From: Trichormus sp. M33_DOE_039
Lineage (GTDB): Bacteria > Cyanobacteriota > Cyanobacteriia > Cyanobacteriales > Nostocaceae
Assembly: GCA_015296085.1 (NCBI GenBank)
Contig: DVDT01000076.1
Span: 1-64,000, forward strand
Direction of reading: 5' to 3'
DNA: 64,000 bases
In this document: positions 18,734 to 43,970 of the stretch, in pieces
Layout of the letters: each line of letters starts with the position of its first letter
Numbering within the stretch: position 1 is the first letter of the stretch
Program-made: the position numbers and the translations under genes
The notes under the pieces: generated by a model
What the model was told of the DNA's origin: nothing
Database searches by the model: none
Seen by the model: the letters and a program-made list of their open reading frames with translations, nothing else

Positions 18734-19438
18734 TCAAGAAACTTGTTGCGTCAGTCGTCCATCTTCCATATGAATTATTCGGTCTGCAATATCTAAAATT
18801 CTGTTATCATGAGTAACCATTAAAATGGAACAATGTTGCTCATAAGCTAATTGCTGCATCAGGTTGACAACATCTCTTCCGGTTTTACTATCTAAAGCAG
18901 CAGTAGGTTCATCGGCTAAAACTAGCTTGGGACGACTGACTAAAGCACGAGCGATCGCCACGCGTTGTTTTTGTCCACCTGAGAGATCAGATGGATAATA
19001 ATCAACCCTATTACTTAATTTAACAGCAGCAAGCATAGCTTCTGATTGGCTACAAGCCTCTTTTTCAGAAATATCTTTGTGTAATTCCATTGACATTTGC
19101 ACATTCTGCCTAGCTGTTAAGAAATCAAGCAAATTGTGAGCCTGGAAAATATATCCAATATGGCGGCGTATGTGTACTAATTCTTGATTACTAGCACCCT
19201 TAAGTTCCTGCCCTAAAAATTTAAGGCTGCCCTGCTGAACAGAACGTAAACCTCCTATCAACGTCAGCAGAGTCGTTTTACCAGACCCAGATGGCCCAGT
19301 CATAATTACAATTTCTCTAGAGTAAATTGAGAAATTAATATCAAATAATATTTGGCTTTTTAATGTTTTACTACCAAAAAAATGGTTCAGACTACGTATG
19401 TCAACGATACAATTGTCTCTTGTGACGTTATCAAGCAT
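18734..19438 (-). CDS. devA: DevA-type ABC transporter ATPase
   Basis: 234 residues with Walker A GPSGSGKTT, signature LSGGQKQR, Walker B VLADEPTAALD and H-loop VTHD. It is the ATPase of a DevBCA exporter, which with TolC-like HgdD moves heterocyst glycolipids or similar envelope material outwards. It is the last gene of devB-devC-devA, 16 bases after devC. It is about two-thirds identical by eye to the orphan DevA at 290-1042. Anabaena PCC 7120 carries several devBCA paralogs, one beside its hgl genes; the symbol here denotes the family, not the founding alr3712 copy. Confidence 0.9.
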   Translation of the reverse strand: MLDNVTRDNCIVDIRSLNHFFGSKTLKSQILFDINFSIYSREIVIMTGPSGSGKTTLLTLIGGLRSVQQGSLKFLGQELKGASNQELVHIRRHIGYIFQAHNLLDFLTARQNVQMSMELHKDISEKEACSQSEAMLAAVKLSNRVDYYPSDLSGGQKQRVAIARALVSRPKLVLADEPTAALDSKTGRDVVNLMQQLAYEQHCSILMVTHDNRILDIADRIIHMEDGRLTQQVS

Positions 19439-19454
19439 ATTTCATGATTTTTAT

Positions 19455-20627
19455 CTAAAAAATATCTGCGGGATCTACATTACGTAATTTATTAGTAGAC
19501 AAGAAACCTGAAATTAAACACATGAAAATTGTAAAACTGAATATTAAAACAGCCTTATCCAAACTCATAATTACTGGTAATTCAGTTGCATCCTTTGCTA
19601 CGTCATACAAAATAATAGAAATTAAGTAACCAGGAATATAACCTAGAGTTGCTAAGATTAGAGCTTGTTTAAAAACCACATTCAATAAATATTTGTTTTT
19701 GAAACCCATTGCTTTTAAGGTTGCATATTCAGGTAAGTGGTTAGAAATATTGCTATAAAGTATTTGATAAACAACAATTACTCCAACTACAAAACCCATA
19801 ATCACCATAAGATTAAACACAAATCCAATTGGTGTTCTGAGAGTCCAATAACTTTTTTCTAAAGCAATAAATTCTTTGCGGGTGATAACTTTGACATCTT
19901 TAGGTAATGTAGCTGATAACTTCGCCAAAGTTTCTTGAGGATTAGTATTAGGTTTGAGATTAATCAAGCCTACATCTATATTTTGTGCCGAACGATCTTG
20001 AAATATACGAAGGAAAGTTGATGAACTAACAATTAAATTTCCATCAACTCCAAAAGAAGGGCCTAGGCTAAATAAGCCACCAACTTTAACTTTATATCCA
20101 ACTAGTGTATGATAATTAAATATTTCTATACTAACATTATCACCTTGTGAGAATTTTTGAGCAATAGGGCCAAACTCTGGACGAGATGCGTAATCAAAAA
20201 AAACTATATTAGGAAGTTGAAGTAATTTTAGTCCCTTTTGAATTTGTGGTAATTGGAAAATTGATTTAACTGGGTCAAATCCAATGACATATATAGGAAA
20301 TTTCAAACCATTAATCGGATTTTTCAATTTAGCAAATTGCAAATATACAGAGCTAACAGATTCTACATTATTAACAGCTAATGCCTGGTATAAACGCCAG
20401 CGCGGAAAGCTTTGATTAGATGTCAAGGATTTATATTGCGCGCTAATCAAAATTAAATCTGCCTGGAGGTTACTATGTACTTGTGTAGCACTTGCATAGA
20501 GAGCATCTTGGAATCCAATTTGCATAAACATTAAAACTACTACAAAAGCAATTCCAGCTAACGCTACAAGAAAACGAACTTTTTGTCGAGCTAGTTGTAA
20601 CCAAGCTAGAGGAATATTAAGAATCAT
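19455..20627 (-). CDS. devC: DevC-type ABC transporter permease
   Basis: 390 residues of the MacB/DevC permease type. One N-terminal membrane span (LVALAGIAFVVVLMFMQIGF) is followed by a large periplasmic region and three C-terminal spans (FNLMVIMGFVVGVIVVYQIL, ILATLGYIPGYLISIILY, VLIFSFTIFMCLISGFL). It ends with the family-typical RNVDPADIF. It forms the inner-membrane channel partner of DevA and DevB, lies 90 bases after devB, and is translated just ahead of devA. Confidence 0.92.
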   Translation of the reverse strand: MILNIPLAWLQLARQKVRFLVALAGIAFVVVLMFMQIGFQDALYASATQVHSNLQADLILISAQYKSLTSNQSFPRWRLYQALAVNNVESVSSVYLQFAKLKNPINGLKFPIYVIGFDPVKSIFQLPQIQKGLKLLQLPNIVFFDYASRPEFGPIAQKFSQGDNVSIEIFNYHTLVGYKVKVGGLFSLGPSFGVDGNLIVSSSTFLRIFQDRSAQNIDVGLINLKPNTNPQETLAKLSATLPKDVKVITRKEFIALEKSYWTLRTPIGFVFNLMVIMGFVVGVIVVYQILYSNISNHLPEYATLKAMGFKNKYLLNVVFKQALILATLGYIPGYLISIILYDVAKDATELPVIMSLDKAVLIFSFTIFMCLISGFLSTNKLRNVDPADIF

Positions 20628-20717: not shown

Positions 20718-21929
20718 TTATATATTAATGAGTACATCAACTTGTAAACCAGTAAGAGCAGTAACCTTCTGACTATCGGTTGGTCTATCAATGCGGATTT
20801 TGACATCAATAACTTTGTTATCCCTATCTGCTCCAGGATTGTTATTGAAAATATTTTGTTGCCCAACTTGCAAACCAATTTCTGCAACTGTCCCGTATAT
20901 TTCTCCTGCAAAAGCAGAGCCAGTAATAATAGCCGATTGACCTAGGCGTACTTTTTTAATATCAGTTTCATAGACTTCTGCAACCACATACATTTGCTGG
21001 GTGTGGCCTAATTCAGCTATTCCCGTACTCCCAATAATTTCTCCTGGTTTAGTATGAATTTCCAAAACTCGTCCATTGATAGGCGATCGCACAATGCTTA
21101 ATTCCAGATCCGCTTGAGCTTGCTTGACAGAGGCCTTTGCAGTGTCAATATTAGTTTGCGCTGCTTGCACATCAGTAGGGCGGATTTCAGCAATACTATT
21201 GAGTCTGGCGTAAGCCTCGGATAATTGCTTTTGGGTAGTTTCTACAGTTCGATTAAAAGAAGCCATAGCCTCATTGAGCTGCTGTTGAACTGTATCAACT
21301 CGCAAACGTTTAGTATCAAAGTCTGATGCTGAGATTGCACCTTCTTTATATAACTGCTGATACCGTTGATTTTCACTTTTTGCATTACGCAACTCTGCTT
21401 GTAGGCGAGCAATTGTTGCTTGCTGTACAGATACTTCTCCTCGCAACTCTGCTTGTAGACGAGCGATCGTTGCTTGTTGTGCAAAGATATCTCCGGCTTT
21501 TGCCCCTGCTTGGACTTGATCGAGACTAGCTTGAGCTACTAGAACTTGTTTTTGGGCTTTTTCTAAAGCTGTAAAACGGAGATTGTAACTGTCAAGAATT
21601 GCAACCACTTGCCCCTGTTGCACTTGGTCTCCTTTTTTGACCAAGAGTTTTGCTACTCGCAAACCTACACCTCCTTGAGAGTCTGCTGTTGATAGCCGAA
21701 TAACTTCTCCTTGAGGTTCTAAACGTCCTAACGCAGCAACAGCAGTTACAGCAGGAGAAGTTTTTGGAGCTTCTTGTTGAGCATCTCGCAGCTGTAATTT
21801 AGATAACAATTGAAATCGTAAAATGCTGTCGAGAGAAACGACACCAGGAACTATAGCCATAAAAATTACTAAAATTACTGTCCACCAACCAAAAGGTTTG
21901 ATGAATGTTTGTCTTTGTTTTTGTACCAT
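20718..21929 (-). CDS. devB: DevB-type periplasmic adaptor (membrane fusion protein)
   Basis: 403 residues with an N-terminal membrane anchor (WWTVILVIFMAIVPGVVSL), lipoyl-like halves (ALGRLEPQGEVIRLS and SPINGRVLEIHTKPGE), a long coiled-coil hairpin (about 130-270) and a beta-barrel region. DevB links the DevCA pump to the outer membrane channel. Start ATG at 21929 gives a normal family N-terminus; an earlier in-frame start at 22001 adds 24 residues without resemblance. The coiled coil contains an 18-codon tandem duplication (QQATIARLQAELR appears twice). First gene of the operon, divergent from the lipid cluster. Confidence 0.9.
   Translation of the reverse strand: MVQKQRQTFIKPFGWWTVILVIFMAIVPGVVSLDSILRFQLLSKLQLRDAQQEAPKTSPAVTAVAALGRLEPQGEVIRLSTADSQGGVGLRVAKLLVKKGDQVQQGQVVAILDSYNLRFTALEKAQKQVLVAQASLDQVQAGAKAGDIFAQQATIARLQAELRGEVSVQQATIARLQAELRNAKSENQRYQQLYKEGAISASDFDTKRLRVDTVQQQLNEAMASFNRTVETTQKQLSEAYARLNSIAEIRPTDVQAAQTNIDTAKASVKQAQADLELSIVRSPINGRVLEIHTKPGEIIGSTGIAELGHTQQMYVVAEVYETDIKKVRLGQSAIITGSAFAGEIYGTVAEIGLQVGQQNIFNNNPGADRDNKVIDVKIRIDRPTDSQKVTALTGLQVDVLINI
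21389..21496 (-). repeat. 54-base tandem duplication inside devB
   Basis: Two copies of a 54-base unit (starting with GCAACTCTGCTTGTAG on the plus strand at 21389 and 21443) encode QQATIARLQAELR twice in the coiled coil, so the duplication is in frame and would lengthen the helical hairpin by 18 residues. Confidence 0.75.
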
Positions 21930-23179
21930 AATTGTGGTTTTTAGTTGAATGATGGATACTGAGGTGTTTAATTTGTAAACAGGAATAATCTCAACTACCA
22001 ATCTTCATCATTTGAGAGGATTGAATTAATAACTGCAAAGTCAATCATCTTCTGCTTATTTTATTTTTATATTTACGTAGTTTCGCAATCTAACGGTATG
22101 CAGTTCAATTATTCAAAGCATACGATAAATGTTTTAATAAGCAATTACAACTCATATGCAACAGATTGAAAGTAATTTATACATAGCTAACTAATCGAAA
22201 CTGTTCTACATAGTTACAAAACATTAAAATCATTGTGATACGAGCGTCACCAAGAGGAAGTACCTATATTTTAAAAACATTCATTCCTATTGTATTTTAT
22301 TTAACTTATAACTAGTATCTCTTGATAATTTTCATTCTTAGGGTAGAGATACTTATGCCTAATATAACTTTGATATTTTTCTAAAATTAATGTGTTGCAC
22401 AATATATACAAGCTTTCTTAAATAATCAACCCTAGGTTAGATGTATAACTGGGTTTATGCAATCTAATTTGGAAACCTAGTCCGATTTCATCGACAATTA
22501 ATCTTAAAATTAAACCTAAAAAATCTGCTGAAATCGAGATTACTGTAAATGGTTTTGCTCATTACCTATGAGATACTGATCCGTATCAAGTAATGATCAA
22601 TCAGGAAAATGCCAACCATAATCTAGAGCCAAATGCTGTAGATTGTAATTTATGTACCAAACTCAAACATTCAATGACTGACCAAAAACGTAAGTGTCCG
22701 AATCAGTATCTGAATGAGATTAAACTCAGTTTTTGTGATAATACTAGTGCTATATAAAAGAGGAAATATCTTTTAATAAAATATTTCTGGCTACTTTACA
22801 GTGGTAATAAAATCAGTCGAAATACATGGATTCTGCTAATAAATATATTCTGCTTCATATAAGTTGCATATGAATTGCGATTAGAAATGAATTAATTTAA
22901 AATACTGACAATTCTCAAGGATACAGGATATTAAAGAACAAGATAAATAAGCAGTAAAAACTAACCTAGTTAGAAGTTTTTATCACCTTGGATTGCAATA
23001 TTTATCTTTTCCTAATAAGTCTTGTATAAGTAATAATTTGTTACTCTAACTGCGGAACATGGAGTTCTTTTTCAGTGTTATGACAGGTATTTATAGAGCT
23101 TTCTATACTAGTAAGGCATGCTGGATTCCATAGGTAAATTATTTCAAATTTAAGGATTTCCCGCTACTTGAAAACCGCT
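21930..23179. other. Divergent control region between devB and the lipid cluster
   Basis: About 1.25 kb, AT-rich, without a supported gene. Both operons must start from here. No exact GTA-N8-TAC NtcA site was found by eye. The length is large for two promoters alone and leaves room for regulatory or small RNA elements. Confidence 0.45.
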
Positions 23180-26100
23180 ATGTTATTTGAACATAGCAGT
23201 ATTCTCTCTAATATTGAATGCTTATTATCCCTATGCACAGAGAAAATTTATTTCTCAAGAAATCTAACATTAACGAATACTAAAGATGAAATCATGGCTG
23301 CTTCTAGAATCGAAGCTAGCTTGGCACAGTTGCAAGATGAAGTGAGCAACTGTGAAAAGGCTCTGCTGAAACTAATAAACGTGAGAAAAACTATGATTGA
23401 CAACACATCACTCAATAAGAAAACAAATATACAAACCCTAAAGCCTAATATGACTTTCCAGCATCCACAAACCAATATTGCTATTATTGGGATGGCATCT
23501 ATATTCCCTCAATCTAAAAATTTGCAGGAATATTGGGAACAAATAATTCACAAAGTAGATTGTATTACTGATGTTCCTCCTTCACGTTGGAGTATAGATG
23601 ATTATTATGATCCCGACCCCAAAAAACCAGATAAAACCTACAGCAAGCGGGGTGGATTTATTCCAGATATTGATTTTAATCCTATGGAATTTGGATTGCC
23701 ACCCAACATTCTAGAAGTTACTGATATTTCACAGTTGTTAGGTTTGGTAGTTGCTAAAGCCGCAATGGAAGATGCCGGCTATGGTGAATCCCGTCAGTTT
23801 AATAGTGATATCTATGATGAACTGCGTCAACGCACAGGAGTAGTATTAGGCGTAGCTATAGGTAGGCAGCTGGCGATTCCCCTCAGTAGCAGATTACAGT
23901 ACCCCATTTGGGAAAAAGTTCTCAAAAGTAGTGGCTTATCGGATGAACATATCCAAACAATCATCGAGAAAATCAAAGCTGCATATGTGCAGTGGGATGA
24001 GAATGCTTTCCCCGGAATGTTAGCCAATGTGATTGCTGGACGAATTGCCAACCGTCTTGATTTGGGGGGCATGAACTGTGTAGTTGATGCTGCCTGTGCT
24101 AGTTCTTTGGGTGCGCTGAAAATAGCAATTAGTGAGCTAGTTGAAGGTCGAGCCGACATGATGATTACAGGCGGCGTTGACACAGATAACTCTATTATGG
24201 CGTATATGTGTTTCAGCAAGACTCCTGCTGTTTCCGCCGGACAAAATGTTAAACCTTTCGATGCTGAATCCGATGGCATGATGTTAGGTGAAGGTGTCGG
24301 GATGTTAGTGCTGAAGCGTTTGGAAGATGCTAAACGAGATAACGATCGCATTTATGCAGTCATCAAAGGTATCGGCAGTTCTAGTGATGGTCGCTATAAA
24401 AGCATCTATGCACCTCGCTCCGAAGGCCAAATCACAGCGTTACGTCGAGCTTATGAAGATGCAGGATTTTCACCTACCAGTGTTGGTTTAATGGAAGCAC
24501 ACGGTACAGGGACAATGGTAGGAGATCCCACCGAATTTACTTCCATTAAAGAGTTTTTTGGCGAAAATAACCCTAAAAAGCAATATATTGCCCTTGGCAG
24601 TGTTAAATCACAGATTGGTCATACAAAAGCGGCTGCGGGTGCGGCAAGTCTAATCAAAACAGCTTTGGCTTTGCACCATAAAGTCTTGCCACCAACAATT
24701 AACATCACCAAACCGCATCCTAAGCTTGATATTGATAATTCTGCATTTTATTTAAATACAGAAACTAGACCTTGGATTAGCACCGATCACCAGCCAAGAC
24801 GGGCTGGAGTCAGTTCTTTTGGCTTTGGTGGCACAAATTATCATGTTGTCTTAGAAGAATATAAACAGGAACACAACCTGCCCTATCGTTTACACAAAAC
24901 AGCCCAACCGATACTGATATTTGCATCCACAACTGAGCAGTTGTTGGTACGCTGTCAAGAAATCAGCCAGCAATTGCAATCTGATGTCGCAGAGCGGCAT
25001 TATATAGAACTAATTTCCGCATCTCAATCTGGAGAAATTCCTGCTGCTAATGCCAGAGTTGGGTTTGTTGCCGATTCCATCACCCAGGCTGGTGAATTAT
25101 TACAACTAGCTATTGAATTACTGAAGAATAAACCACAAGCAGAATCTTGGGAGCATCCCCAAGGAATTTACTACCGCAAAACAGGCGTACCTATTAAGAA
25201 AGTAGTCGCTCTATTCTCAGGACAAGGCTCACAATACTTAGAAATGGGTCGAGAACTGGTAATTAACTTCCCTTGTTTGCGCCAGACCTATGCTCAGATG
25301 GATAGTCTGTTGTCTCAAGACGGTTTACAACCCCTTTCAGAAGTTGTGTTTCCGCCTCCTGTATTTGATGCTGCTCAAAAAGCTGCCCAATTAGAAAAAT
25401 TACAGCTAACGGAATATGCACAGCCAGCAATTGGGGCTTTTAGTGCTGGTTTGTACAAGATATTACAACAAGCAGGATTAAAGCCTGATTTTGTGGCCGG
25501 ACATAGCTTTGGAGAACTCACAGCCCTTTGGGCAGCAGGGGTTTTGAGCGAAAGAGATTACTGTTTCCTGGTCAAAGCTAGGGGTCAAGCTATGGCTGCA
25601 CCTAAAGATCCGCAATTTGATGCTGGAGCTATGCTAGCGGTGAAAGGGGATGTGAATCAGATTAGAGAACTAATCAAAAATGATTCTCAAGTCAGCATTG
25701 CTAACTTGAATTCTCATCATCAGGTGGTGTTAGCAGGTAAAAAAGCTGAAATTGCCAAAGTAGAAGAGGTTCTCAAAGCAAAAGGTTTCTCTACCGTCTT
25801 GCTTGGTGTTTCCGCAGCTTTTCATACTTCCTTGGTAGCTCATGCACAGAAACCTTTTGCTGAAGCGATTGAGACAGTTACCTTCAAGCAACCGCAAGTC
25901 CCAGTTTATAGTAATCTTACAGCCAAACCTTACCCAACCGAACCACAAGCTATTCAAAACATTCTCAAAGAACACCTGATGAGTCAGGTGCTGTTTCAGC
26001 AGGAGATTGAAAATATTTATGCTGAAGGTGGTGATTGCTTTATTGAATTTGGGCCGCGCAAAGTTCTCACCAATCTAGTTAAAGAGATTCTGAGCGATCG

Positions 26101-28726
26101 CCCCCATATAGCTGTAGCCCTAAATGCCAATCCTGCTAAAGATAGCGATCGCACTCTGCAAGAAGCTGTTGTACAGTTGCGCGTTGCTGGGTTAGCTTTG
26201 CAAAACATAGATGCTTATCAACTAGAACACAAAATTCCAGAAGTTAGTACCAACAAAGTCCTGAAGATTCGCTTAAATTGTACTAACTATGTTTCGGAAA
26301 AAACGAAACAAGCCTTTGAAAAAGCTCTACAAAGTGAGAAGCCAATGACATCGGCTCTGAGTAATGGGAATCAACTCGAAAAAGTTACCCAATCTCAGCC
26401 AGAAATATCAAACCTCCTGACCTCCAAGCCTGCAAATCCTCAATATCAAAGTACATTCAACGATTCTATTCCCCATAACTCTGACTCAGAAAACAGGACA
26501 GCCGTCAATCATGGAGTGACGATGACATCAGTTCAAAATGGGCAAGCGGACAAATCGCTAATCCAGCCTCTGCCAGCTAGTTCAGAACTATCTATGAATT
26601 ATCAAAAAATTATAGATAGCTTAGAGTACGCACTCATAGAATTTAATCGCCATCAACGCAGCGTCTTACAGGTGCATGAGCAATCTTTAAAATATCAGAC
26701 AGAATATACCAAAACCTTCTTCCAACTAATGCAGCAACAGCAATCGCTGTGGGAAAATACTAGATTCACTGAGCAACAAGCACAAACACAACAACTTGTA
26801 ATCTCCAGTTCAGAACGCAGCATCATGCGGTTCCACACCCATCAAGCTGAAAGCCTCCGCATCCATGAACAATATCTGAACTATCAGCAGGAATACACTA
26901 ATCAATTTTTACGGTTGCTCCAGCAACAATATAATGTACCCATTTCTCACAATGACACTCAACATCGTCCCATACCACTGGTTAATGATCAAGAAAATTA
27001 TGTTGCACCATTATCGTTAAATGATCATCCAGTTCTGGTGACAAACGCCTCGATTTCTGTACCAAGTAACGGTGTTTTCAGCAAATCTGAGCCGATATCA
27101 ACTAATGGTAACGGTAATGGTAATGGTCATAGTAACGGTAACGGTCATAGCATCAGTAATGGGGCAAACTATCAAACAAAATCAGTGGTAGATGTGATTG
27201 CAACGCAGGAACATCATCTTGCCACCGCGACAGTAGCATCTCCATTACCAGTATTTATTGATACGGCAACCCTAAGCCAAACTCTGCTCAACGTCGTTAG
27301 TGATAAAACTGGCTACCCAATTGAGATGCTAGAACTATCGATGGATATTGAGGCAGATTTGGGGATTGATTCTATCAAACGTGTGGAAATTCTCGGAGGA
27401 TTGCTCGAACTTTACCCTGATTTACCTAAACCCAATCCCGAAGAACTAGGACAGCTACGTACTTTGGGCCAAATAGTTGAGTATATGGGGTCTTTAGTAT
27501 CGGGAATAGTAACGAAGCAAGTAGATGCGGAAGTCACATCTGATTCTGATTTATCTTCCATCCTGCCAGAAGTTAACGTTACTTCCCTGACATCCTCCAC
27601 ACTTCTCACCCTGCACGAAATAGAAGCTACATCTCCTCCACTCTCCATCGACTTAGCTAATCTGAGTCCCACGCTACTCAACATAGTGAGCGATAAGACA
27701 GGCTACCCAACTGAGATGTTAGATATGTCGATGGATATCGAGGCAGATTTGGGGATTGATTCCATCAAACGTGTAGAAATCTTGGGAGCATTGCTAGAAG
27801 CATATCCTGAACTGCCCAAACCCAATCCAGAAGAACTAGGTCAATTGCGAACTTTAGGAGAGATTGTTGCATATATAGAACAGCAGGTTGGAGAGGCTGA
27901 AAAAAAAATGCTGTTGATAGAGACGCAACACAAGACCTCTTGGCAAAATCAGCCATCTGAAATGCCGGAACTTGGGGAAATCTCTGTCCCATCCCCCACT
28001 TCTAATTTTCAACTACCAATTTTTCGCAATCCTGTTAAACTCAAGTTTCTTCCTGAACCCGATGTTTTAGAGTTTACCTTACCTGCGCAACATATTGCTG
28101 TGTTAACTGATGATGGTTCACCGAAAACAACCAAACTAGCCGAAGCTCTTAGTCAGCGTGGTTGGAAGACCGTTGTCTTGACTTTCCCGCCCACCCTGAT
28201 TTCTCAAAAATCTGCTTTACCTGAAGGTATAAATCGGGTAGTGCTGACAGATGTGAGCGAGCAGCATCTGCAACAACAGTTAGCAGCGATCGCCACTGAA
28301 TATGGCCAGATTGGTGCTTTTATCTATCTAAATCCTGCCAACCACGCAGATATAGGTAATGTCAATTATTTGGAATCAGAAAAAGCCCTCTTACGCCACG
28401 TCTTCCTGATTGCTAAACATCTCAAAGAGCCATTGAATCAAGCAGCACTCTTAGGACGCAGTTGTTTTCTCACTGTTGCTCACCTGGATGGGGAGTTGGG
28501 ACTAGGGCAGAAAACTAACTTTGGTGCGATCGGTGGTGGGTTGTTCGGACTGACTAAAACTTTGAACCAGGAATGGGAATCTGTATTTTGTCGAGCTATA
28601 GACCTTAGCCCAGATTTAGATGACCAGACATCGGTGGAGTCTATCCTGACAGAACTTTATGACCCCAATAGATTGGTTGTGGAAGTGGGCTATAGCTCAC
28701 AGGGACGAGTAACTTTAGTTTGTTAA
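23180..28726 (+). CDS. PfaA/HglE-like synthase: KS-AT-ACP-ACP-KR(N half)
   Basis: 1848 residues; iterative type I synthase of the PUFA-synthase/heterocyst-glycolipid group. The ketosynthase (about 100-560) has all three motifs: DAACASSL (active Cys near 306), EAHGTGT and GHTKAAAG. The acyltransferase (about 660-960) has GQGSQ and GHSFGE (Ser near 775) with AAFHTS, which suggests malonyl specificity. A Gln-rich helical linker and an NGNGNG hinge precede two nearly identical ACPs, each with LGIDSIKRVEIL (Ser near 1397 and 1528). The last 230 residues match only the structural half of a ketoreductase and stop at RVTLVC. The catalytic half is in the next gene. Starts at 23180 or 23294 are both possible. 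Confidence 0.9.
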   Translation: MLFEHSSILSNIECLLSLCTEKIYFSRNLTLTNTKDEIMAASRIEASLAQLQDEVSNCEKALLKLINVRKTMIDNTSLNKKTNIQTLKPNMTFQHPQTNIAIIGMASIFPQSKNLQEYWEQIIHKVDCITDVPPSRWSIDDYYDPDPKKPDKTYSKRGGFIPDIDFNPMEFGLPPNILEVTDISQLLGLVVAKAAMEDAGYGESRQFNSDIYDELRQRTGVVLGVAIGRQLAIPLSSRLQYPIWEKVLKSSGLSDEHIQTIIEKIKAAYVQWDENAFPGMLANVIAGRIANRLDLGGMNCVVDAACASSLGALKIAISELVEGRADMMITGGVDTDNSIMAYMCFSKTPAVSAGQNVKPFDAESDGMMLGEGVGMLVLKRLEDAKRDNDRIYAVIKGIGSSSDGRYKSIYAPRSEGQITALRRAYEDAGFSPTSVGLMEAHGTGTMVGDPTEFTSIKEFFGENNPKKQYIALGSVKSQIGHTKAAAGAASLIKTALALHHKVLPPTINITKPHPKLDIDNSAFYLNTETRPWISTDHQPRRAGVSSFGFGGTNYHVVLEEYKQEHNLPYRLHKTAQPILIFASTTEQLLVRCQEISQQLQSDVAERHYIELISASQSGEIPAANARVGFVADSITQAGELLQLAIELLKNKPQAESWEHPQGIYYRKTGVPIKKVVALFSGQGSQYLEMGRELVINFPCLRQTYAQMDSLLSQDGLQPLSEVVFPPPVFDAAQKAAQLEKLQLTEYAQPAIGAFSAGLYKILQQAGLKPDFVAGHSFGELTALWAAGVLSERDYCFLVKARGQAMAAPKDPQFDAGAMLAVKGDVNQIRELIKNDSQVSIANLNSHHQVVLAGKKAEIAKVEEVLKAKGFSTVLLGVSAAFHTSLVAHAQKPFAEAIETVTFKQPQVPVYSNLTAKPYPTEPQAIQNILKEHLMSQVLFQQEIENIYAEGGDCFIEFGPRKVLTNLVKEILSDRPHIAVALNANPAKDSDRTLQEAVVQLRVAGLALQNIDAYQLEHKIPEVSTNKVLKIRLNCTNYVSEKTKQAFEKALQSEKPMTSALSNGNQLEKVTQSQPEISNLLTSKPANPQYQSTFNDSIPHNSDSENRTAVNHGVTMTSVQNGQADKSLIQPLPASSELSMNYQKIIDSLEYALIEFNRHQRSVLQVHEQSLKYQTEYTKTFFQLMQQQQSLWENTRFTEQQAQTQQLVISSSERSIMRFHTHQAESLRIHEQYLNYQQEYTNQFLRLLQQQYNVPISHNDTQHRPIPLVNDQENYVAPLSLNDHPVLVTNASISVPSNGVFSKSEPISTNGNGNGNGHSNGNGHSISNGANYQTKSVVDVIATQEHHLATATVASPLPVFIDTATLSQTLLNVVSDKTGYPIEMLELSMDIEADLGIDSIKRVEILGGLLELYPDLPKPNPEELGQLRTLGQIVEYMGSLVSGIVTKQVDAEVTSDSDLSSILPEVNVTSLTSSTLLTLHEIEATSPPLSIDLANLSPTLLNIVSDKTGYPTEMLDMSMDIEADLGIDSIKRVEILGALLEAYPELPKPNPEELGQLRTLGEIVAYIEQQVGEAEKKMLLIETQHKTSWQNQPSEMPELGEISVPSPTSNFQLPIFRNPVKLKFLPEPDVLEFTLPAQHIAVLTDDGSPKTTKLAEALSQRGWKTVVLTFPPTLISQKSALPEGINRVVLTDVSEQHLQQQLAAIATEYGQIGAFIYLNPANHADIGNVNYLESEKALLRHVFLIAKHLKEPLNQAALLGRSCFLTVAHLDGELGLGQKTNFGAIGGGLFGLTKTLNQEWESVFCRAIDLSPDLDDQTSVESILTELYDPNRLVVEVGYSSQGRVTLVC

Positions 28727-28754
28727 ACATAGACCTTGGCTAAGAAGGTGAACC

Positions 28755-30458: not shown

Positions 30459-30740
30459 CCAGATATCTCTCTTAAAAAAGGAAGTGGATTTAGGGAAGTA
30501 TTTTTCATCTTTGGCTGTGAAACAGGTCAGTTTTTTCTTTGGTATGCAATAGCAGTAGCCTTTGGCAGAGAAAGATTTTTCTAGCGTGTAGCTTGTTTCT
30601 TCATAGGAGTATGTTAGTAAAACGTTAACGACATAGCAGCCTCACACGGAGAGTAAAACACGTTTCATTGAGACTGCCAACTTTAATTCATAGTACGAGA
30701 TATAAAAAATACGTGAACCAAAAATATGAGGAGTTAGTTG
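30459..30740. other. Gap inside the lipid cluster
   Basis: 282 bases with no gene or clear hairpin; GAGGAG near 30728 is the likely ribosome binding site of the next gene. Confidence 0.4.
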
Positions 30741-34176: not shown

Positions 34177-35841
34177 GTGATTGTCACCAATAATTCCTCA
34201 CAACACTATGATAACCACTTAAAACTACTCAATTCTTTTGATGGCAAAAAACAATTTTGGCAAGGTTCTTTAGATACTTTGGTCTTTGATGAAGCAGGGA
34301 TAAAAGTAAAGCTTTTAAATTTAGATCAACCGTGTTACATTGTTAGAGTTCAAGGCAAAATAGGTGTTACTAATGAAGGCTATTTAATTCATCCTAATAA
34401 TGGTAAAATTGGAAATATAGAATTACTGATAGAGATTCCCCCTCTGACGATTCAACAGTTAGGTGATCCCAACTTCTTGAGTTTTCATAATGTGAAGTAT
34501 GCTTATGCCTGCGGTGCAATGGCGCATGGAATTGCTTCAGAAGAACTGGTGATTGCTCTCGGCAAAAAAAGCATCTTGAGTTCTTTTGGTGCTGGTGGAT
34601 TAGCTCCTATTCGTGTAGAAACTGCTATTAATCGTATTCAACAAGCTCTACCCCAGGGGCCTTACGCTTTTAATTTACTCCACAGTCCCAGCGAACCGGC
34701 TATTGAGCGCAAAGTTGTAGATTTGTATCTTCAATATCAAGTTAGAACAATAGAAGCATCTGCTTTTTTAGATTTGACTGATAATATTATCTACTACCGA
34801 GCTGCTGGACTAAGTCTAAATTCAGCCCATCAAATCGTTATCAACAATAAAATTATTGCCAAAATCTCTCGGAGAGAAGTAGCCACTAAATTTTTACAAC
34901 CTGCTCCTAGAAAAATTCTGAAACAATTAGTAGAGCAAGGTCTAATTAGTGAATTACAGGCGAATCTAGCAGAAAAAGTCCCAGTTGCTGATGATATCAC
35001 CATTGAAGCGGATTCTGGTGGACATACAGATAATCGTCCTCTAGTTTGTCTATTACCCTCCATCTTGGAATTGAGAGATCAAATTCAAAGCAAATATGGT
35101 TATGAGCAACCAGTAAGAATTGGAGCAGCCGGAGGAATTGCAACTCCACAGTCAGCACTAGCAGCTTTTATGATGGGTGCTGCTTATGTCGTCACCGGCT
35201 CTATTAACCAATCCTGCATTGAAGCAGGTACGTCTCAACACACCAAGCAATTGTTAGCTCAAGCTGAGATGGCTGATGTAATGATGGCACCCGCCGCAGA
35301 TATGTTTGAAATGGGAGTAAAAGTTCAAGTTCTTAAAAGAGGAACTTTCTTTCCTTTACGAGCGCAAAAGCTGTTTGATTTATACAAAAGCTATGAATCA
35401 ATTGAAGATATACCATTGGCCGAGAGAGAAAAATTAGAAAAACAAGTTTTCAAAAAAAGTTTAGAAGCAGTTTGGCAGGAGACAGTAGCTTATCTTTCTC
35501 AACGCAATCCAATCAAACTAGCCCAAGCAGCTAATAACCCTAAATTGAAAATGGCTTTGATTTTTCGCTGGTATCTTGGCTTATCATCTCGTTGGTCGAA
35601 TTCTGGGGAAAAAGACCGAGAAACCGATTATCAAATTTGGTGTGGCCCTGCGATGGGTAGTTTTAATGATTGGGTAAGGGGTTCATATTTAGAAGTATCA
35701 AGTAATCGGCAAGTCGTAGATGTTGCTCATCATATTATGACGGGTGCAGCGTTTTTATATCGTATTCAAAGTTTAAAACTGCAAGGGTTACAAATGCCGA
35801 ATGAATATAGTCAATATTCCCCTGTTAGTAAATTTATTTAA
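34177..35841 (+). CDS. PfaD-type FMN enoyl reductase
   Basis: 554 residues of the PfaD/2-nitropropane-dioxygenase-like group, the trans-acting enoyl reductase of PUFA synthases. Recognisable segments are the N-terminal PfaD region, SSFGAGGLAPIRVETAI, ADDITIEADSGGHTDNRPL (FMN site), IGAAGGIATPQS and AAYVVTGSINQSCIEAGTS. The C-terminal helical part WCGPAMGSFNDWV is also typical. Start is GTG at 34177 with GAGG ten bases before it. It allows full reduction of the growing chain, so the product may be saturated in places. Confidence 0.92.
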   Translation: MIVTNNSSQHYDNHLKLLNSFDGKKQFWQGSLDTLVFDEAGIKVKLLNLDQPCYIVRVQGKIGVTNEGYLIHPNNGKIGNIELLIEIPPLTIQQLGDPNFLSFHNVKYAYACGAMAHGIASEELVIALGKKSILSSFGAGGLAPIRVETAINRIQQALPQGPYAFNLLHSPSEPAIERKVVDLYLQYQVRTIEASAFLDLTDNIIYYRAAGLSLNSAHQIVINNKIIAKISRREVATKFLQPAPRKILKQLVEQGLISELQANLAEKVPVADDITIEADSGGHTDNRPLVCLLPSILELRDQIQSKYGYEQPVRIGAAGGIATPQSALAAFMMGAAYVVTGSINQSCIEAGTSQHTKQLLAQAEMADVMMAPAADMFEMGVKVQVLKRGTFFPLRAQKLFDLYKSYESIEDIPLAEREKLEKQVFKKSLEAVWQETVAYLSQRNPIKLAQAANNPKLKMALIFRWYLGLSSRWSNSGEKDRETDYQIWCGPAMGSFNDWVRGSYLEVSSNRQVVDVAHHIMTGAAFLYRIQSLKLQGLQMPNEYSQYSPVSKFI

Positions 35842-36175: not shown

Positions 36176-36469
36176 ATGAGTCAGTCAACTAATAATCTGC
36201 ATTACACAACGGAAGAAATTCAAATGTGGTTAATCTCTAATATTGCTGCACAGATGGAAATTAACCCAGATGTGATAGATATTCGAGAGCCTTTAGACAG
36301 CTATGGTTTAGATTCTGTACAGGCAATTATACTTGCAAAAAAAGCAGAGAAATTATTGGGATTTAAGCTTTCTCCTATGTTACTTTGGCATTATCCCACC
36401 ATTGAATTGCTAGCTGAACGATTAGCTGAAGAATTGGAAACTTCGGAATTAGAAAGTTTTCAAATTTAA
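36176..36469 (+). CDS. Free-standing acyl carrier protein
   Basis: 97 residues with one phosphopantetheine site, YGLDSVQA (Ser near 43), in the four-helix ACP layout. The motif differs from the LGIDSIKR sites of the synthase, so it is a different ACP class, closer to discrete or AMP-ligase-linked carriers. It sits between the enoyl reductase and the docking-domain protein and may carry the finished chain to tailoring enzymes. Confidence 0.9.
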   Translation: MSQSTNNLHYTTEEIQMWLISNIAAQMEINPDVIDIREPLDSYGLDSVQAIILAKKAEKLLGFKLSPMLLWHYPTIELLAERLAEELETSELESFQI

Positions 36470-38733: not shown

Positions 38734-39870
38734 ATGATGCAAATAACTAAAAAATCTCCATCTTTAAATCATTTATTCACAAATATTAATCAGGTATGTA
38801 TAGTTACAAATAATTGTGATGAAACAGTTCGTTGCCTTTCTAAATACCTGGGAATCGGCCCTTTTAAGTGTTGGTATCATCAATCTCCAAGACTTTTTAA
38901 TACCAAAGTTTATGGTAAAAAAGTGGATTGGAAAATGAAAATAGCTATTGCTTGGATTGGTAATATCCAGTTAGAAGTAGTTGAAAATATAGAAGGGAAT
39001 ACTATTTATAGTGAATATCTTAAAACTAAAGGTGAAGGTGTTCAACACTTACTTTTTGATACTGGTAATCTAAGTTTAGAACAATCCATTAACCAATTAG
39101 CTAAACTAGATTGTTCTGTCACTCAAGAGGGTATGCTCAATATTCCAGTTCAGTTGGGATTTATTAATCTTCCCCCTACCCCTCGTTTTTTGTCCAATTT
39201 ATTAATTCCAAAATTTGCATATCTTGATACAGAAAATTTAGCTAAAACCACATTTGAACTGTTAAAGCTACCTCCTTTTTTACCTTTAAAAAGTGGAATT
39301 AGTATTACTAAGCCAGACTATTGGATTCCAGAGGGAAATAAAAACATTAATAGTTCATTGCCTAATAGTTTTATCAATCAAATATTTAAGGTTGGTATTT
39401 TAACTTATGACATTGATAAAACTGTGCGTAATTATGTCAAAACTCTAGGAATTGGCCCTTGGAAAATATATACTCTTCAAGAGCCAAGGCTTTTACAAAC
39501 TAAAGTTCGTGGAAAAAACGTTAGTTTATCTGTGCGAATGGCAGTCACTTATATTGGCAATACCTTATTGGAACTTGTTCAGCCATTGGATGGCGAAAGT
39601 ATATATCATGAGTTACTTTCTACCCAAGGTGAAGGAGTTCATTATATCGGAGTGAGTAGCGATAAGCTGAATTTTTCGGAATTGCTAGAACATTTTAGTA
39701 AATTAGGGTGTCCCGTTGCTATGGAAGGAAAACTAGAAAATATATATCAGTTTGCCTATTTGGACACAAAGCCTTTAGCTAAGATGATGATGGAAGTGGT
39801 ATCTATTCCGGTGAATAAAATTTCGTTAGCTTTGGAGTCCCTTCAACCTGATGAAATATATCCTAACTGA
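38734..39870 (+). CDS. Tandem vicinal-oxygen-chelate (glyoxalase-like) protein
   Basis: 378 residues made of two related halves. Each half has the VOC pattern: INQVCIVTNNCDETVRCL, LGIGPFKCW, LEVVE, GEGVQHL in the first, and FINQIFKVGILTYDIDKTV, LGIGPWKIY, LELVQ, GEGVHYIG in the second. The Glu and His positions fit a metal-binding methylmalonyl-CoA-epimerase/glyoxalase-type site. Family members are epimerases, isomerases or dioxygenases. In this cluster it may act on an oxidised acyl intermediate, which is inference. Confidence 0.82.
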   Translation: MMQITKKSPSLNHLFTNINQVCIVTNNCDETVRCLSKYLGIGPFKCWYHQSPRLFNTKVYGKKVDWKMKIAIAWIGNIQLEVVENIEGNTIYSEYLKTKGEGVQHLLFDTGNLSLEQSINQLAKLDCSVTQEGMLNIPVQLGFINLPPTPRFLSNLLIPKFAYLDTENLAKTTFELLKLPPFLPLKSGISITKPDYWIPEGNKNINSSLPNSFINQIFKVGILTYDIDKTVRNYVKTLGIGPWKIYTLQEPRLLQTKVRGKNVSLSVRMAVTYIGNTLLELVQPLDGESIYHELLSTQGEGVHYIGVSSDKLNFSELLEHFSKLGCPVAMEGKLENIYQFAYLDTKPLAKMMMEVVSIPVNKISLALESLQPDEIYPN

Positions 39871-40019: not shown

Positions 40020-41717
40020 ATGACAAAAATAGTTAATAATGAAATTGTCTCATCTATTCAGACCACTTCTTTTGAGAGAGCTAACGCATTAATCTCTCGG
40101 TTAGCTCAATCCAAAAACACTTGGATTCAGATAGGAATTCCAGAGCGAATTGCTTATCTACGCCGTTGCTTAGAGGGAGTTCAGAAAATAGCTGCAAGGT
40201 CTGTGGAAGTTACTTGTCAGGCAAAAGGAATTGATCCAATTGAGCCTTTAGCCGGCGAGGAGTGGTTGTCTGGGCCAATGATTGTCATGCGAAATTTGCG
40301 GTTGCTCATTCAAGCTTTGGAAGCTGGTGGTCAACCCAAGCCTAAACTTTGGCGTACCCGTCCTGATGGACAGGCGATCGCTCAAGTACTTCCTGAAAGT
40401 TTAATGGACAAAATTTTATGGAGGGGATTTACTGCTGAGGTATGGATAGAACCTGGTAAGCCAACCACTCAAGGGGCCATCTACAGAGAAAAACATAGCG
40501 ATGGCAAGGTTGCACTGATATTGGAAGCAGGAAACAACTGGTCACTTAGTCTGACAGACACATTACATAAGTTATTTGTCGAAGACCAAGTTGTGATTCT
40601 CAAGATGAGTCAGATTAACGAATATGATAGTCCTTTCATTGAAGAAGCATTTCAGTCACTGGTGCAACATGGATTTTTAGCTGTGGTTTGTGGTGACGCT
40701 CAACTAGGTAGCTATCTTTGCCATCATCCTGAAGTTGATACTATCCATATTACAGGTTCAGATCGCACCCATGATGCCATTGTTTGGGGAAACACATTGG
40801 AAGAACAATTAAAGCGGAAGGCAGTAAATCAACCTTTGCTGGCAAAGCCGATAACTTCACAGCTAGGATGTGTTACTCCTGTGTTTGTCGTTCCTGGATT
40901 GTGGTCTGAATCTGATCTACTGTTTCAGGCTCGTCATGTAGCCAGCATGGTCACTCATAATGCTAGCTTTAACTGTGATGCTGCCAAAGTGTTAGTGACT
41001 GCTAAAGGCTGGGAGCAACGGGAGGCTTTTTTGACTCTTTTACACCAAGAGTTAGCTGCTATTCCTAATCGTAAAGCATATTACCCTGGTGCTAAACAAA
41101 GATATCAAGCCTTTTTAGATCATTATCCGCAAGCTCAACCATTGACTTGTGCCGATGAAGAGAGCATACCCTGGACAGTAATTCCTGATATAGCTCCAAC
41201 ACTAGGAGAGTATGCCCTTAACCACGAAGCATTTTGCGGATTATTAGCAGAGGTTTCTTTAGATGCCTATGAGGCAGGGGAATTTTTAGCCAAAGCCGTT
41301 AATTTTGCCAATCAAAAAGTTAAGGGGACACTTTCTTGTGTCTTATTGGTGCATCCCGCAACTGAAAAAGCCTATTCATCCGAGATAGATCAAGCGATCG
41401 CTGATCTACGCTATGGTGGCATCGGCGTTAATGTTTGGTCAGGAATCATTTATGCTCTGGGGTCAACAACTTGGGGTGCTTTCCCTGGTAATCCTTTAAC
41501 AAATATTGGTTCTGGTTGTGGGGTAGTTCACAATACATATTTATTTGATCATCCACAAAAATCAGTTGTGCGCGCACCATTTCGCATTTTCCCCACGCCA
41601 GCATGGTTCGCAACCCATAAAAACTTATTAGAACTCGGTAAGCGCGTTACTGCTTTCGAGGCCAATCCTCAATGGCACAGACTTCCAAACCTCATTTTGG
41701 CAGCACTCAAAGGATGA
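40020..41717 (+). CDS. Aldehyde-dehydrogenase-superfamily enzyme
   Basis: 565 residues. It has an NAD(P)-binding region with HITGSDRTHDAIVWG and a catalytic-cysteine region HNASFNCDAAKVLV (Cys 319). EAGNNW (about 170) lies in the earlier half. The arrangement recalls acyl-thioester reductase-like and coniferyl-type members. It could release the ACP-bound chain as an aldehyde, or oxidise an aldehyde to an acid. It follows the VOC gene and precedes the oxygenase by 27 bases, which implies cotranscription with the latter. Confidence 0.82.
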   Translation: MTKIVNNEIVSSIQTTSFERANALISRLAQSKNTWIQIGIPERIAYLRRCLEGVQKIAARSVEVTCQAKGIDPIEPLAGEEWLSGPMIVMRNLRLLIQALEAGGQPKPKLWRTRPDGQAIAQVLPESLMDKILWRGFTAEVWIEPGKPTTQGAIYREKHSDGKVALILEAGNNWSLSLTDTLHKLFVEDQVVILKMSQINEYDSPFIEEAFQSLVQHGFLAVVCGDAQLGSYLCHHPEVDTIHITGSDRTHDAIVWGNTLEEQLKRKAVNQPLLAKPITSQLGCVTPVFVVPGLWSESDLLFQARHVASMVTHNASFNCDAAKVLVTAKGWEQREAFLTLLHQELAAIPNRKAYYPGAKQRYQAFLDHYPQAQPLTCADEESIPWTVIPDIAPTLGEYALNHEAFCGLLAEVSLDAYEAGEFLAKAVNFANQKVKGTLSCVLLVHPATEKAYSSEIDQAIADLRYGGIGVNVWSGIIYALGSTTWGAFPGNPLTNIGSGCGVVHNTYLFDHPQKSVVRAPFRIFPTPAWFATHKNLLELGKRVTAFEANPQWHRLPNLILAALKG

Positions 41718-41744
41718 CAAATTTTCAATTTCTTGTTCAAAGTA

Positions 41745-42755
41745 ATGAAAATTAACAAAAGCACTTTATTTGGTTATCAATCTCCTTGTGTAATCAGCCC
41801 TAAAGTTGACAGTGAAAATGCTCATTTAGACGAGATAGTATCTTGGTTGTCTCAAGAGCGTCAATCGCTAGAAAAAGAACTCCAACTCAAAGGTGCTATC
41901 CTTTTGCGTGGCTTCAAAGCCATTCATGGAGTAGAAGCATTTAAATCTGTGATGTCAGTGTTTTCTTCACAGACTGCAAGTGATCAGGGCAGCACATCAC
42001 CGCGAACGTTAGTTCACAATGGGATTTATACTTCCACAAATGCTCCGCCTTATTTACCAATTGAACTACATCAAGAGCGGAGTTTTCATACAGAGTTCCC
42101 CGAAAAAATCGCTTTTTTCTGTGATGTTGCTCCCATTAAAGGTGGAGAAACTCCAATAGCAGATATGCGAGCAGTCTATAAAGCCTTACCGCTAGACCTG
42201 ATTAAGCGTTTTGAAAAGCGGGGGGTCAAGCTGTGTCGGAGGCTACCTACGAAGAATTGGACTGGTAATCAGGCAGTTAGAACATGGCAAGAAACCTTTG
42301 AGACAGATAATCGCCGTGAAGTTGAGCATATTGCAGAAAAACTAGGCTGGCAACTGAAATGGAATCCATTTTATTTAGAAGTTGATAACTGTGTATGCCC
42401 TGCGTCTATTACTCATCCAGTTACAGGAGAAAAAGTTTGGTTTAACCAAGCCCATGTCTTACACAAAAGTAATTTATTACATTGGGCGAAGCGTTACGGG
42501 GGTTTTCAACTTTGGACTATTGCCCTGCTTGCACCGATATTTTCGCAACTTTATTACTATCATCACGTTTTCGGGGACAACTCAGAGATTAACAGTGTAG
42601 ATCTGGATGTGATACGCCAAGTTATTTCCAGTCAGCAAATTCGGTTTAGCTGGCAGCAGGGCGATATTTTATTACTTGACAATATAATCATGGCTCACGG
42701 CAGGTGCATATTTAAGGGAAAAAGACGAATATTAGTGACGCTAATCAATAGCTAA
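41745..42755 (+). CDS. TauD/TfdA (SyrP-like) 2-oxoglutarate/Fe(II) oxygenase
   Basis: 336 residues. The facial triad is visible: IELHQERSFH (His, Glu), the distal DNIIMAHGR (His) and the 2-oxoglutarate-binding Arg in RRILVTL. GAILLRGF near the N-terminus is a typical opening of the family. It is expected to hydroxylate, desaturate or chlorinate an unactivated carbon. The triad position reads H-x-E, and carboxylate retention suggests hydroxylation rather than halogenation. ATG at 41745 is preferred over TTG at 41733. It is the likely last step of the ALDH-oxygenase pair. Confidence 0.87.
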   Translation: MKINKSTLFGYQSPCVISPKVDSENAHLDEIVSWLSQERQSLEKELQLKGAILLRGFKAIHGVEAFKSVMSVFSSQTASDQGSTSPRTLVHNGIYTSTNAPPYLPIELHQERSFHTEFPEKIAFFCDVAPIKGGETPIADMRAVYKALPLDLIKRFEKRGVKLCRRLPTKNWTGNQAVRTWQETFETDNRREVEHIAEKLGWQLKWNPFYLEVDNCVCPASITHPVTGEKVWFNQAHVLHKSNLLHWAKRYGGFQLWTIALLAPIFSQLYYYHHVFGDNSEINSVDLDVIRQVISSQQIRFSWQQGDILLLDNIIMAHGRCIFKGKRRILVTLINS

Positions 42756-42959
42756 TTTTAGCAAATCTGACTTTCACAACCAAACTGTGATTTTTATAAG
42801 TAGACTTCTATAAAAATGTGGTTTTGACCTTTGTTTGACAAGGGTTTAATACTTATTTGCGGTTGAGGATTGCCATATTATAGCTAATACAAATGGCAAT
42901 TACCCCTACTGTGCAAAAAACTTGAAAGATCATAGTTGTTGACACTCTATAAATTACCT

Positions 42960-43970
42960 ATGAAGCTATCGAATTGCACACTTTTAATTTCTGGAATTGA
43001 TGGGTTTATTGGTTTCCGTAGTGCTGAATTAGCTATTGCACAGGGAATGAAAGTTAGGGGGTTAAAAAGTTCCAATTATAATACCGAGAAACTGCAAAAT
43101 TTAGGTGTTGAGGTAATAGTTGGTAGTATTACTGATCCTGCGATCGCTCAAAAAGTTTGTCAGGGAGTTGATATTGTTTTACATGCAGCTGAATTAGCTG
43201 AAGAAGTTGGCTCAATTAAAAAGTTTCGGGAAATAAATGTTGACGGGACTATCAATCTTGCTAAAGCTGCCGAAAATGCGGGAGTTAAAAGCTTTGTACA
43301 TCTTTCTAGTGTGATGGTTTATGGTTTTAACTATCCTAACTATGTCACAGAAGCAGCTCCACTTCATACTCAGAATAATCCTTACTGTCAAACCAAAATA
43401 GAAGCGGAAGCAGCGTTGTTAAAACTCCATACCTCCCCAGATTTTGGCATTATTATTATTAGAGCAGGCGATGTTTATGGGCCAGAGAGTCTTCCTTGGA
43501 TCATCCGACCATTGCAGTTGATGCGCCAAAAATTGTTTGCCTATATCAATGATGGTAAAGGAATCAGTAACCACGTATATATAGATAACTTAATTGATGC
43601 TATATTTCTTGCCGTAGAAAAAGAAGTGCATGGAGAAATTTTTAATATTACTGATGGCATAGAAACTTCTTGGAAAGATTATTTTACTTATTTAGCAGAA
43701 ATTGCTGGTTTACCTGTAGATTATCCTTCTTTTCCCAAGGACGAACTTAAACTTTTAGTGAAACTACGTTATCAAGGACAGAAACTATTTGGCAAAAAAG
43801 CTGATATTGTCCCTGAATCTCTAGATTTTATCAGTCGCCCTTATGCTTATTCGATTGCTAAAGCCAAAGCAATGTTGAATTATCAACCTAAGATTGCTTT
43901 GCCAGAAGGAATGCGACGCACCCAGGAATGGCTGCTGGCAAACGAGATCAATATAGTAAACAGTAAATAA
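42960..43970 (+). CDS. NAD-dependent epimerase/3-beta-HSD-like reductase
   Basis: 336 residues of the extended SDR family. The N-terminal motif ISGIDGFIG is a slightly altered GxxGxxG (first Gly kept, GIDGFIG), and the active site is SSVMVYG...YCQTK (Ser, Tyr, Lys). HVYIDNLIDAIFLAVE is typical of the NAD-dependent epimerase or 3-beta-hydroxysteroid dehydrogenase branch. ATG at 42960 is chosen over TTG at 42936. It is the last plus-strand gene of the lipid cluster and may reduce or epimerise a keto group or a sugar. Confidence 0.82.
   Translation: MKLSNCTLLISGIDGFIGFRSAELAIAQGMKVRGLKSSNYNTEKLQNLGVEVIVGSITDPAIAQKVCQGVDIVLHAAELAEEVGSIKKFREINVDGTINLAKAAENAGVKSFVHLSSVMVYGFNYPNYVTEAAPLHTQNNPYCQTKIEAEAALLKLHTSPDFGIIIIRAGDVYGPESLPWIIRPLQLMRQKLFAYINDGKGISNHVYIDNLIDAIFLAVEKEVHGEIFNITDGIETSWKDYFTYLAEIAGLPVDYPSFPKDELKLLVKLRYQGQKLFGKKADIVPESLDFISRPYAYSIAKAKAMLNYQPKIALPEGMRRTQEWLLANEINIVNSK

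Follow-up and report, generated by a model that had tools for sequence, protein, structure and literature searches.

A free acyl carrier protein and the docking-domain protein TubX form the conserved tail of an hgl-like island in Trichormus sp. M33_DOE_039

Introduction

What does a second, heterocyst glycolipid-like gene island make, and how is its product finished? This question is raised by positions 18734-43970 of a 64,000-nucleotide stretch of Trichormus sp. M33_DOE_039 (positions 1 to 64,000 of contig DVDT01000076.1, assembly GCA_015296085.1), which was analysed as a whole and is called the window below. The genes for a DevBCA exporter diverge there from genes for a synthase of the polyunsaturated fatty acid (PUFA) or heterocyst glycolipid (hgl) type, which are followed by a free acyl carrier protein (ACP), a docking-domain protein that we call TubX, and four further genes of tailoring type. 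Our new point is that the free ACP and TubX are the conserved tail of the hgl-like island.

Compact second islands built of hgdCB and hglE-A-F-G-C-A homologues have been named 'hgl-like islands'; they are widespread and their product is unknown (Perez Gallego et al. 2025, PMC11804610). According to the main text of that study, 259 of the 494 Cyanobacteriia with an hgl island carry at least one further island, and no type of heterocyst glycolipid (HG) is linked to the hgl-like ones. Because further hgl islands are so widespread, the ACP-TubX tail matters for the question of what hgl-like islands produce. From a conserved tail of this kind one can also predict that TubX docks and that it has a metal site, both of which are directly testable, and if it is true that TubX releases chains, its off-loading chemistry would be distinct from that of thioesterases and reductases.

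The locus is a second island of the hgl-like kind

The source genome (7.0 Mb in 116 contigs, with 18 ketosynthase matches) carries a canonical hgl set on contig C67, where we assigned, by domain layout, HglB (an ACP fused to a reductase), PfaD, HglC, HglD, a ketoreductase-dehydratase (KR-DH) protein and HglE. The core proteins of the window are 46-71% identical to these canonical proteins, with 56% identity between the PfaA/HglE-type synthase and the strain's own HglE. PfaD, the only synthase gene that was treed, places the window in a clade of 47 of the 79 rows (support 99/94) and the strain's canonical copy in a separate clade of eight rows (support 100/99). As canonical rows served the remaining PfaD copies of the genomes concerned (the sole copy in the case of G035), and the island content behind them was checked for the strain's own C67 only. 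The tree omits the window's own duplicate, L109 (a stop), and L138, L214, L206, L133 (short). Its deeper branches include several non-heterocystous loci. Since the canonical set lies on C67 and the two PfaD copies fall in separate clades, the window holds a second, distinct island. A sequence-only reading of the window had proposed such a second system, the alternative being that its genes group with hgl orthologs in a genome with no other hgl cluster, which is the opposite of what the tree and C67 show. The proposal thus holds, but second islands are already in print (main text of PMC11804610).

The locus has the features of an hgl-like island: hgdCB (DevB/DevC) is clustered with homologues of HglE, KR-DH, HglC and PfaD (compared with the strain's own canonical proteins rather than with those of Anabaena PCC 7120, and without separate assignment of hglF and hglG), the cluster is additional to a larger hgl island in the same genome, and its PfaD clade stands apart. 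The reductase part of the strain's own HglB found no match at 1e-20 within positions 18001-46500, and the HglD ketosynthase is missing from the window, where the best match to HglD is the PfaA ketosynthase at 34%. We therefore rejected, on the PfaD tree and on the lack of the HglB reductase and HglD, the idea that this is the canonical hgl island itself. The window is a member of the known hgl-like kind with an unusual, derived tail. No glycosyltransferase family appeared in a scan of ten window proteins; hglT itself was not searched for. Going by the title of their 2020 paper, Saito and Awai reportedly found that HglE2 does not make HGs.

The island might instead be no more than a redundant or degenerating second synthase of heterocyst glycolipids, with TubX as a minor accessory. 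The core genes are the same as those of hgl at the identities given above, a few synthases that fall within or adjoin the canonical PfaD clade also have TubX at their side, and the island of Gloeocapsopsis crepidinum, with both TubX and reductase, goes with HG-like C24 diols (main text of PMC11804610). We consider this account improbable all the same: the window has neither the HglB reductase nor HglD, its synthase motifs are present, its PfaD clade is separate, and the main text of PMC11804610 ties no HG type to hgl-like islands. That text also argues against the role in heterocysts or akinetes that the sequence-only reading had entertained, because hgl-like islands are absent from some akinete formers and are the only island in strains that have lost heterocysts.

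The ACP-TubX pair and its carrier tail

Among 145 genomes of the family, a sample that was not started from TubX and in which relatedness was not controlled, TubX occurs in 60 of the 65 genomes with at least two PfaD copies and in 15 of the 80 others (Fisher p 4e-20).

Relatives of the locus were compared in two sets. The first comprises 29 loci picked for holding TubX; TubX has a long match in 35 other genomes, of which 29 were used (one of the six unused is partial). The second comprises the best 80 of 118 confirmed TubX loci, gathered by a scan with the stretches SVPCGTYE and [KQN][IF]SILNMN; it reaches about 10 kb on each side of TubX, so that devBCA and PfaA lie mostly outside it. The two sets have at least four loci in common. 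Synthase genes and PfaD were present in 27 of the 29 relative loci, and devB in 26, in some cases at the opposite flank of the cluster. In the larger set, 56 loci have TubX by a synthase with PfaD and a chain-length factor (CLF), 18 have it by a different, modular polyketide synthase (PKS), and six are unclear. This second locus type forms one group in the TubX tree (support 100/99), which suggests that the ACP-TubX pair changed machines rarely.

The free carrier ends in a tail of acidic residues followed by Phe, Ile or Leu, then Glu or Gln, and usually Ile. Taken loosely, the pattern is matched by the carrier that precedes TubX in 79/79 loci in which a carrier was found (L160 is the sole locus of the 80 without one), and the strict form F-E/Q-I/L fits 56 of the 79. 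Either form matches 2 of 789 other forward open reading frames (ORFs) of at least 150 aa. As the pattern was chosen after the tails had been seen, these counts describe the tail and do not test it. Twenty-two of the 79 carriers score nearest to the modular-PKS carrier, and the tail is also found beside an unrelated PKS. The TubC_N domain at the start of the window's TubX matches PF18563 with 66.7 bits against a cut-off of 26 (E 2e-18); Pfam detects it in 65/65 TubX members, and the docking part of TubX matches the AerJ and TubC structures. Beta-hairpin docking domains of the TubC_N type bind carrier tails such as these.

We found no description of an ACP-TubX module in literature searches limited to open-licence papers. 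A search of plasmids recovered TubX in two records (Nostoc UHCC 0926 and Gloeothece PCC 7822) and, for CLF, only distant matches in five records. Some loci vary in the surroundings of the pair. L151 and L152 (Scytonema) have ACP, TubX and PapA with devBC and no synthase within about 10 kb, and in L091 (positions 6119-7417) and similar Nostoc loci a gene of about 432 aa separates PfaD from the ACP, with no Pfam match in L091, the sole one scanned. One hgl-like island has a PfaD match (G142:C1:2267546-2269181) that is split and holds seven stops beside an open TubX; that island may be decaying, or the sequence may hold a frameshift.

A predicted aldolase-like fold in TubX

An AlphaFold model of TubX with a mean predicted local distance difference test score (pLDDT) of 82.8, folded from an alignment of 64 of the 80 loci plus the window, matched L-rhamnulose-phosphate aldolases. 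The C-terminal part modelled alone (alignment of 57 plus the window) reached a pLDDT of 85.5 and a predicted template modelling (TM) score, pTM, of 0.85. When this model was searched with Foldseek, ranks 1-41, read for the most part from entry titles, were all assigned to the class II aldolase superfamily with E-values from 5e-6 to 0.019, followed by a gap to 0.33; TM to target ranged over 0.40-0.56. Among these matches are oxime dioxygenases, 6btd, YgbL, 2z7b and 1pvt, which we take to be members of the superfamily. The models support a class II aldolase-like fold for the TubX C-terminus; what they support is the fold, not the function.

Four residues, D495, H522, H524 and H582, are invariant in 65/65 TubX rows. 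All of them lie outside the two scan stretches, at which conservation is built in because the scan used both. From the family, by analogy, they are putative metal ligands and a putative catalytic acid, the roles that the equivalent residues have in FucA and RhaD. An hhalign path between TubX and E. coli RhaD, itself non-significant, sets PSYD of TubX against PTSE, HFH against HCH, and DHG against FHG.

What TubX may do on the carrier

The reading that we place first, tentatively, is that TubX docks on the ACP and performs metal-dependent carbon-carbon chemistry on the bound chain, most likely releasing it. A PUFA-type iterative synthase would build a long, mostly reduced chain and pass it to the free ACP, a relative of HglB's reductase-fused carrier that ends in the short acidic tail. 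TubX would grip this tail with its TubC_N domain, and the aldolase-like domain might then free the chain as a ketone, by decarboxylation or a retro-aldol step, or join it to a small carbonyl compound in an aldol-type reaction. A short-chain dehydrogenase/reductase (SDR) could reduce the resulting ketone, and the DevBCA pump would export the lipid. Relatives may in addition esterify the product through PapA and add sugars or sulfate. The end product of the present strain should differ, because PapA has been lost and the VOC, aldehyde dehydrogenase (ALDH) and TauD genes gained (see below).

The second-type loci bear on this proposal. A fatty acyl-AMP ligase (FAAL)-like gene accompanies the PKS in 7 of the 18, and an AurF/CylC-like gene in 12 of the 18. 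The last PKS protein of G220 and L233, both of which were scanned, is a ketosynthase-acyltransferase-ACP (KS-AT-ACP) protein, and no thioesterase or thioester-reductase domain was found in the PKS proteins of either locus. With no release domain in these proteins, the chain that reaches TubX there would be a beta-keto chain, and TubX would be the obvious last enzyme. It is possible, and we hold it a little more loosely than release itself, that ACP-TubX is a portable chain-termination module, in which a docked, metal-dependent enzyme of aldolase fold releases or extends the chain by carbon-carbon chemistry. Such a module would serve two unrelated machines, PUFA/hgl-type synthases and modular PKSs, the latter often with FAAL and CylC-like partners, and would be key to the product of hgl-like islands.

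Several loci show the variety of these surroundings. In L141, L143-L145, L147, L156, L158, L166, L170 and L233 (the Gloeothece PCC 7822 plasmid), TubX comes after a modular PKS that is accompanied by an AurF/CylC-like gene; genes for a fatty acyl-AMP ligase-like protein, an SDR, and either glycosyltransferases or a sulfotransferase are found in most of these loci as well. The TubX locus of HT-58-2 (L167) lies inside an antiSMASH region listed as T1PKS/carbamidocyclophanes (PMC8073705 Table 2). In the hgl-like islands L109, L112, L117 and L155 (Fischerella group), PfaD and the ACP are separated by an AurF/CylC-like gene; these islands may correspond to the 'nitronate monooxygenase-containing' CylC clusters described in the consulted passages of PMC8406957.

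A number of observations weigh against release by an aldolase-like reaction. With TM about 0.5 and a root-mean-square deviation of 5-12 A, the structural match is one of fold level only. Neither Pfam, run on 65 TubX members, nor a PDB profile search of TubX returned an aldolase, the docking domain being the only match; NCBIfam returned no match, and hhalign against 22 class II aldolases was not significant (P 0.33). None of the searches explained residues 70-320. The fold family also has epimerases, a decarboxylase and dioxygenases, so that TubX may carry out another reaction. An annotated alpha/beta hydrolase lies nearby in L233. TubX is not confined to the PfaD clade of the window, as it also occurs in L153, whose PfaD belongs to the canonical clade, and in L128-L130 and L135, whose PfaD lies next to that clade. 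(L128, L129, L135 and L153 also have an HglD-like ketosynthase.) An HglB-like thioester reductase stands beside ACP-TubX in 4 of the 56 synthase loci and 7 of the 29 relative loci, four of them shared; because the two coexist in several loci, TubX did not simply replace the HglB reductase, and the idea of a plain replacement is weakened. Finally, Gloeocapsopsis crepidinum LEGE 06123 has a single PfaD match, in an island that holds TubX and the reductase. This strain makes C24 1,3-diols and their glycosides, for which the main text of PMC11804610 speculates that the island is the source, and such diols need no aldolase.

A different role ranks next after release: TubX could be a tailoring enzyme that epimerises, dehydrates, decarboxylates or oxidises the ACP-bound chain, with release left to a stand-alone thioesterase or acyltransferase elsewhere. 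A docked tailoring enzyme with the same docking domain exists in the AerJ halogenase, the fold family includes epimerases and dioxygenases, some islands hold a thioester reductase alongside TubX, and PapA could take the chain directly from the ACP in 45 of the 56 synthase loci. We nevertheless judge it rather unlikely, since the PKS proteins of the two scanned second-type loci show no other release domain and since the window has lost PapA yet kept ACP-TubX.

Gene content of the locus

All ORFs of 18734-43970 are open, and their order is the one first listed, with devBCA diverging from the synthase and tailoring-type genes; what the sequence-only reading observed is confirmed (Table 1). Chance is excluded for the gene assignments, with Pfam E-values down to 9e-64. 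The locus is real and functional-looking.

Table 1. Features of the locus, with positions in the window and the basis of each assignment
Feature	Position	Strand	Basis
DevA-family ATP-binding cassette (ABC) exporter ATPase	18734..19438	-	TIGR02982, 372.7 bits, over NCBIfam cut-off
DevC permease	19455..20627	-	TIGR01185, 461.9 bits, over NCBIfam cut-off
DevB membrane-fusion protein	20718..22001	-	TIGR02971, 356.5 bits, over NCBIfam cut-off
PfaA/HglE-type synthase, KS-AT-ACP-ACP	23168..28726	+	TIGR02813 (PfaA), 1754 bits against cut-off 1010
KR-DH protein	28755..30458	+	Pfam; 57% identical to own canonical KR-DH
HglC-like CLF (KS-like) with PfaB-type AT	30738..33983	+	46% to own HglC
PfaD/HglA enoyl reductase	34177..35841	+	TIGR02814, 662 bits; tree
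Relic of PapA-type acyltransferase, 43 aa	35948..36076	+	Similarity to G094 protein
Free ACP with C-terminal tail	36176..36469	+	Domain match; 53% to ACP domain of own HglB
TubX (our own name), 626 aa	36496..38376	+	TubC_N docking domain (10-59), middle part (~70-320), predicted class II aldolase-like part (~318-626)
Tandem VOC protein (two Glyoxalase_4/VOC stretches)	38734..39870	+	Pfam
ALDH-family protein	40020..41717	+	Weak Pfam match, 1.5e-6
TauD-family oxygenase with HxE motif	41733..42755	+	Pfam
Extended SDR (Epimerase/3Beta_HSD; HpnA/OleD-like)	42936..43970	+	Pfam, NCBIfam

The synthase had been read as KS-AT-ACP-ACP-KR. The KS, the AT and both ACPs stand, while Pfam finds no KR at the end of 23168..28726, where a first KR half is only presumed. 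Two ORFs in different frames meet at the boundary between synthase and KR-DH (28726-28755); the same split is seen in the strain's own canonical island and in some relatives, and many relatives have a single ORF. By alignment, the first KS keeps its active-site Cys and the CLF has Gln in its place. The AT motifs GHSFG and GYSFG, two LGIDS ACP motifs and the DH motif HxxxGxxxxP are present. The gene of TubX had likewise been correctly recognised, at 621 residues; counted from the first ATG, the protein has 626. NtcA-type GTAN8TAC sites occur at chance level (12 found against 11.5 expected), with none in the devB-synthase gap at 22002-23167. The SDR scores 50.9 bits for NAD_binding_4, below its own Epimerase score of 112.8. 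Position 43970 is a fair end of the cluster, because the next gene (44133-45809, minus strand) points the other way and is present in 0 of the 29 relative loci.

The sequence-only reading had also set five tailoring-type proteins together. Within this set only the docking-domain protein proved general, and the SDR was present in 6 of the 29 relative loci and 18 of the 56 synthase loci. The VOC, ALDH and TauD genes were found in 0/29 relative loci and 0/80 loci of the larger set. They were also not found, nor was the SDR, in 37 kb of G296, the closest relative found, which has PapA whole. Elsewhere, relatives of the VOC protein outside its own island amount to one weak match (28% over part) among 147 other genomes. 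Of 194 other genomes, 9 carry relatives of the ALDH (53-58% identical); these 9 belong to a single other genus, and no synthase, VOC or TauD genes were found in the stretches inspected around five of them. L182 and L184-L187 are ALDH relatives (54-56%) of one genus of another family. For TauD, 44 of 147 other genomes gave matches at E <= 0.001, the long ones at most 39% identical. Across the loci examined, the three genes were seen in cluster context only in the island of the present strain. One conserved five-gene tailoring set was therefore rejected. That VOC, ALDH, TauD and SDR form one conserved, dedicated pathway with the synthase might be suggested by their common direction and close spacing. 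As a general rule this is contradicted by the absence of VOC, ALDH and TauD from both sets and from G296, and no synthase stands beside the ALDH relatives in the five genomes inspected; we regard it as very improbable.

A PapA-type acyltransferase gene is more widely shared. Eighteen of the 29 relative loci have it (one member scanned), as do 45 of the 56 PfaD/CLF synthase loci, 0 of the 18 modular-PKS loci and 3 of the 6 unclear ones. The gene is whole in G094, where the HHxxxDG motif is present, and in G296 (a 454-aa match), and the relic in the window shares 46% identity with residues 2-42 of its G094 counterpart (E 2.4e-5). The best NCBIfam model for PapA is PapA5, at 70 bits, below the cut-off of 396. 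A match to the PapA family on contig C3 of the strain's own genome is a 27% paralogue.

Comparison with known systems

The canonical hgl island (Anabaena PCC 7120 type, here that of C67) has HglE, KR-DH, HglC and PfaD in common with the window. Its last carrier is fused to a thioester reductase in HglB and it has the HglD ketosynthase in addition; the window has a free ACP and TubX instead. The bacterial PUFA synthase PfaABCD shares with the window a PfaA over the TIGR02813 cut-off and PfaB- and PfaD-type parts, whereas the window has two ACPs, other terminal genes and, judged by the general domain layout of PfaC, no PfaC-type protein among the scanned genes.

Class II aldolases (RhaD, FucA and AraD, and the decarboxylase HMPDdc) are matched by the predicted fold of the C-terminal half of TubX and, along the hhalign path to RhaD, by the HxH, H and acid motifs. 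TubX differs from them in having no significant sequence similarity, in being joined to a docking and a middle domain, and in lying beside PKS genes. The mycobacterial phthiocerol dimycocerosate (PDIM)/phthiocerol pathway resembles the island in its PKS, in a PapA5-type acyltransferase (found in relatives of the locus), in a possible ketone reduction and in ABC export. The likeness is one of analogy only: the window keeps just a remnant of PapA, and the enzyme proposed for release is not related.

The PKS clusters of the FAAL-CylC type, as described in the consulted passages of PMC8406957, resemble the second-type TubX loci; the window is without FAAL and CylC and shares with those loci only the carrier-TubX pair. 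The nearest known systems are the hgl-like islands of PMC11804610, which are the same in being a second compact island of hgdCB and hglE-A-F-G-C-A homologues beside the canonical one. The words tailoring, acyltransferase and aldolase do not appear in the main text of that study, and to its account we add PapA, the pairing of ACP with TubX, the tail of the carrier and the predicted aldolase-like fold.

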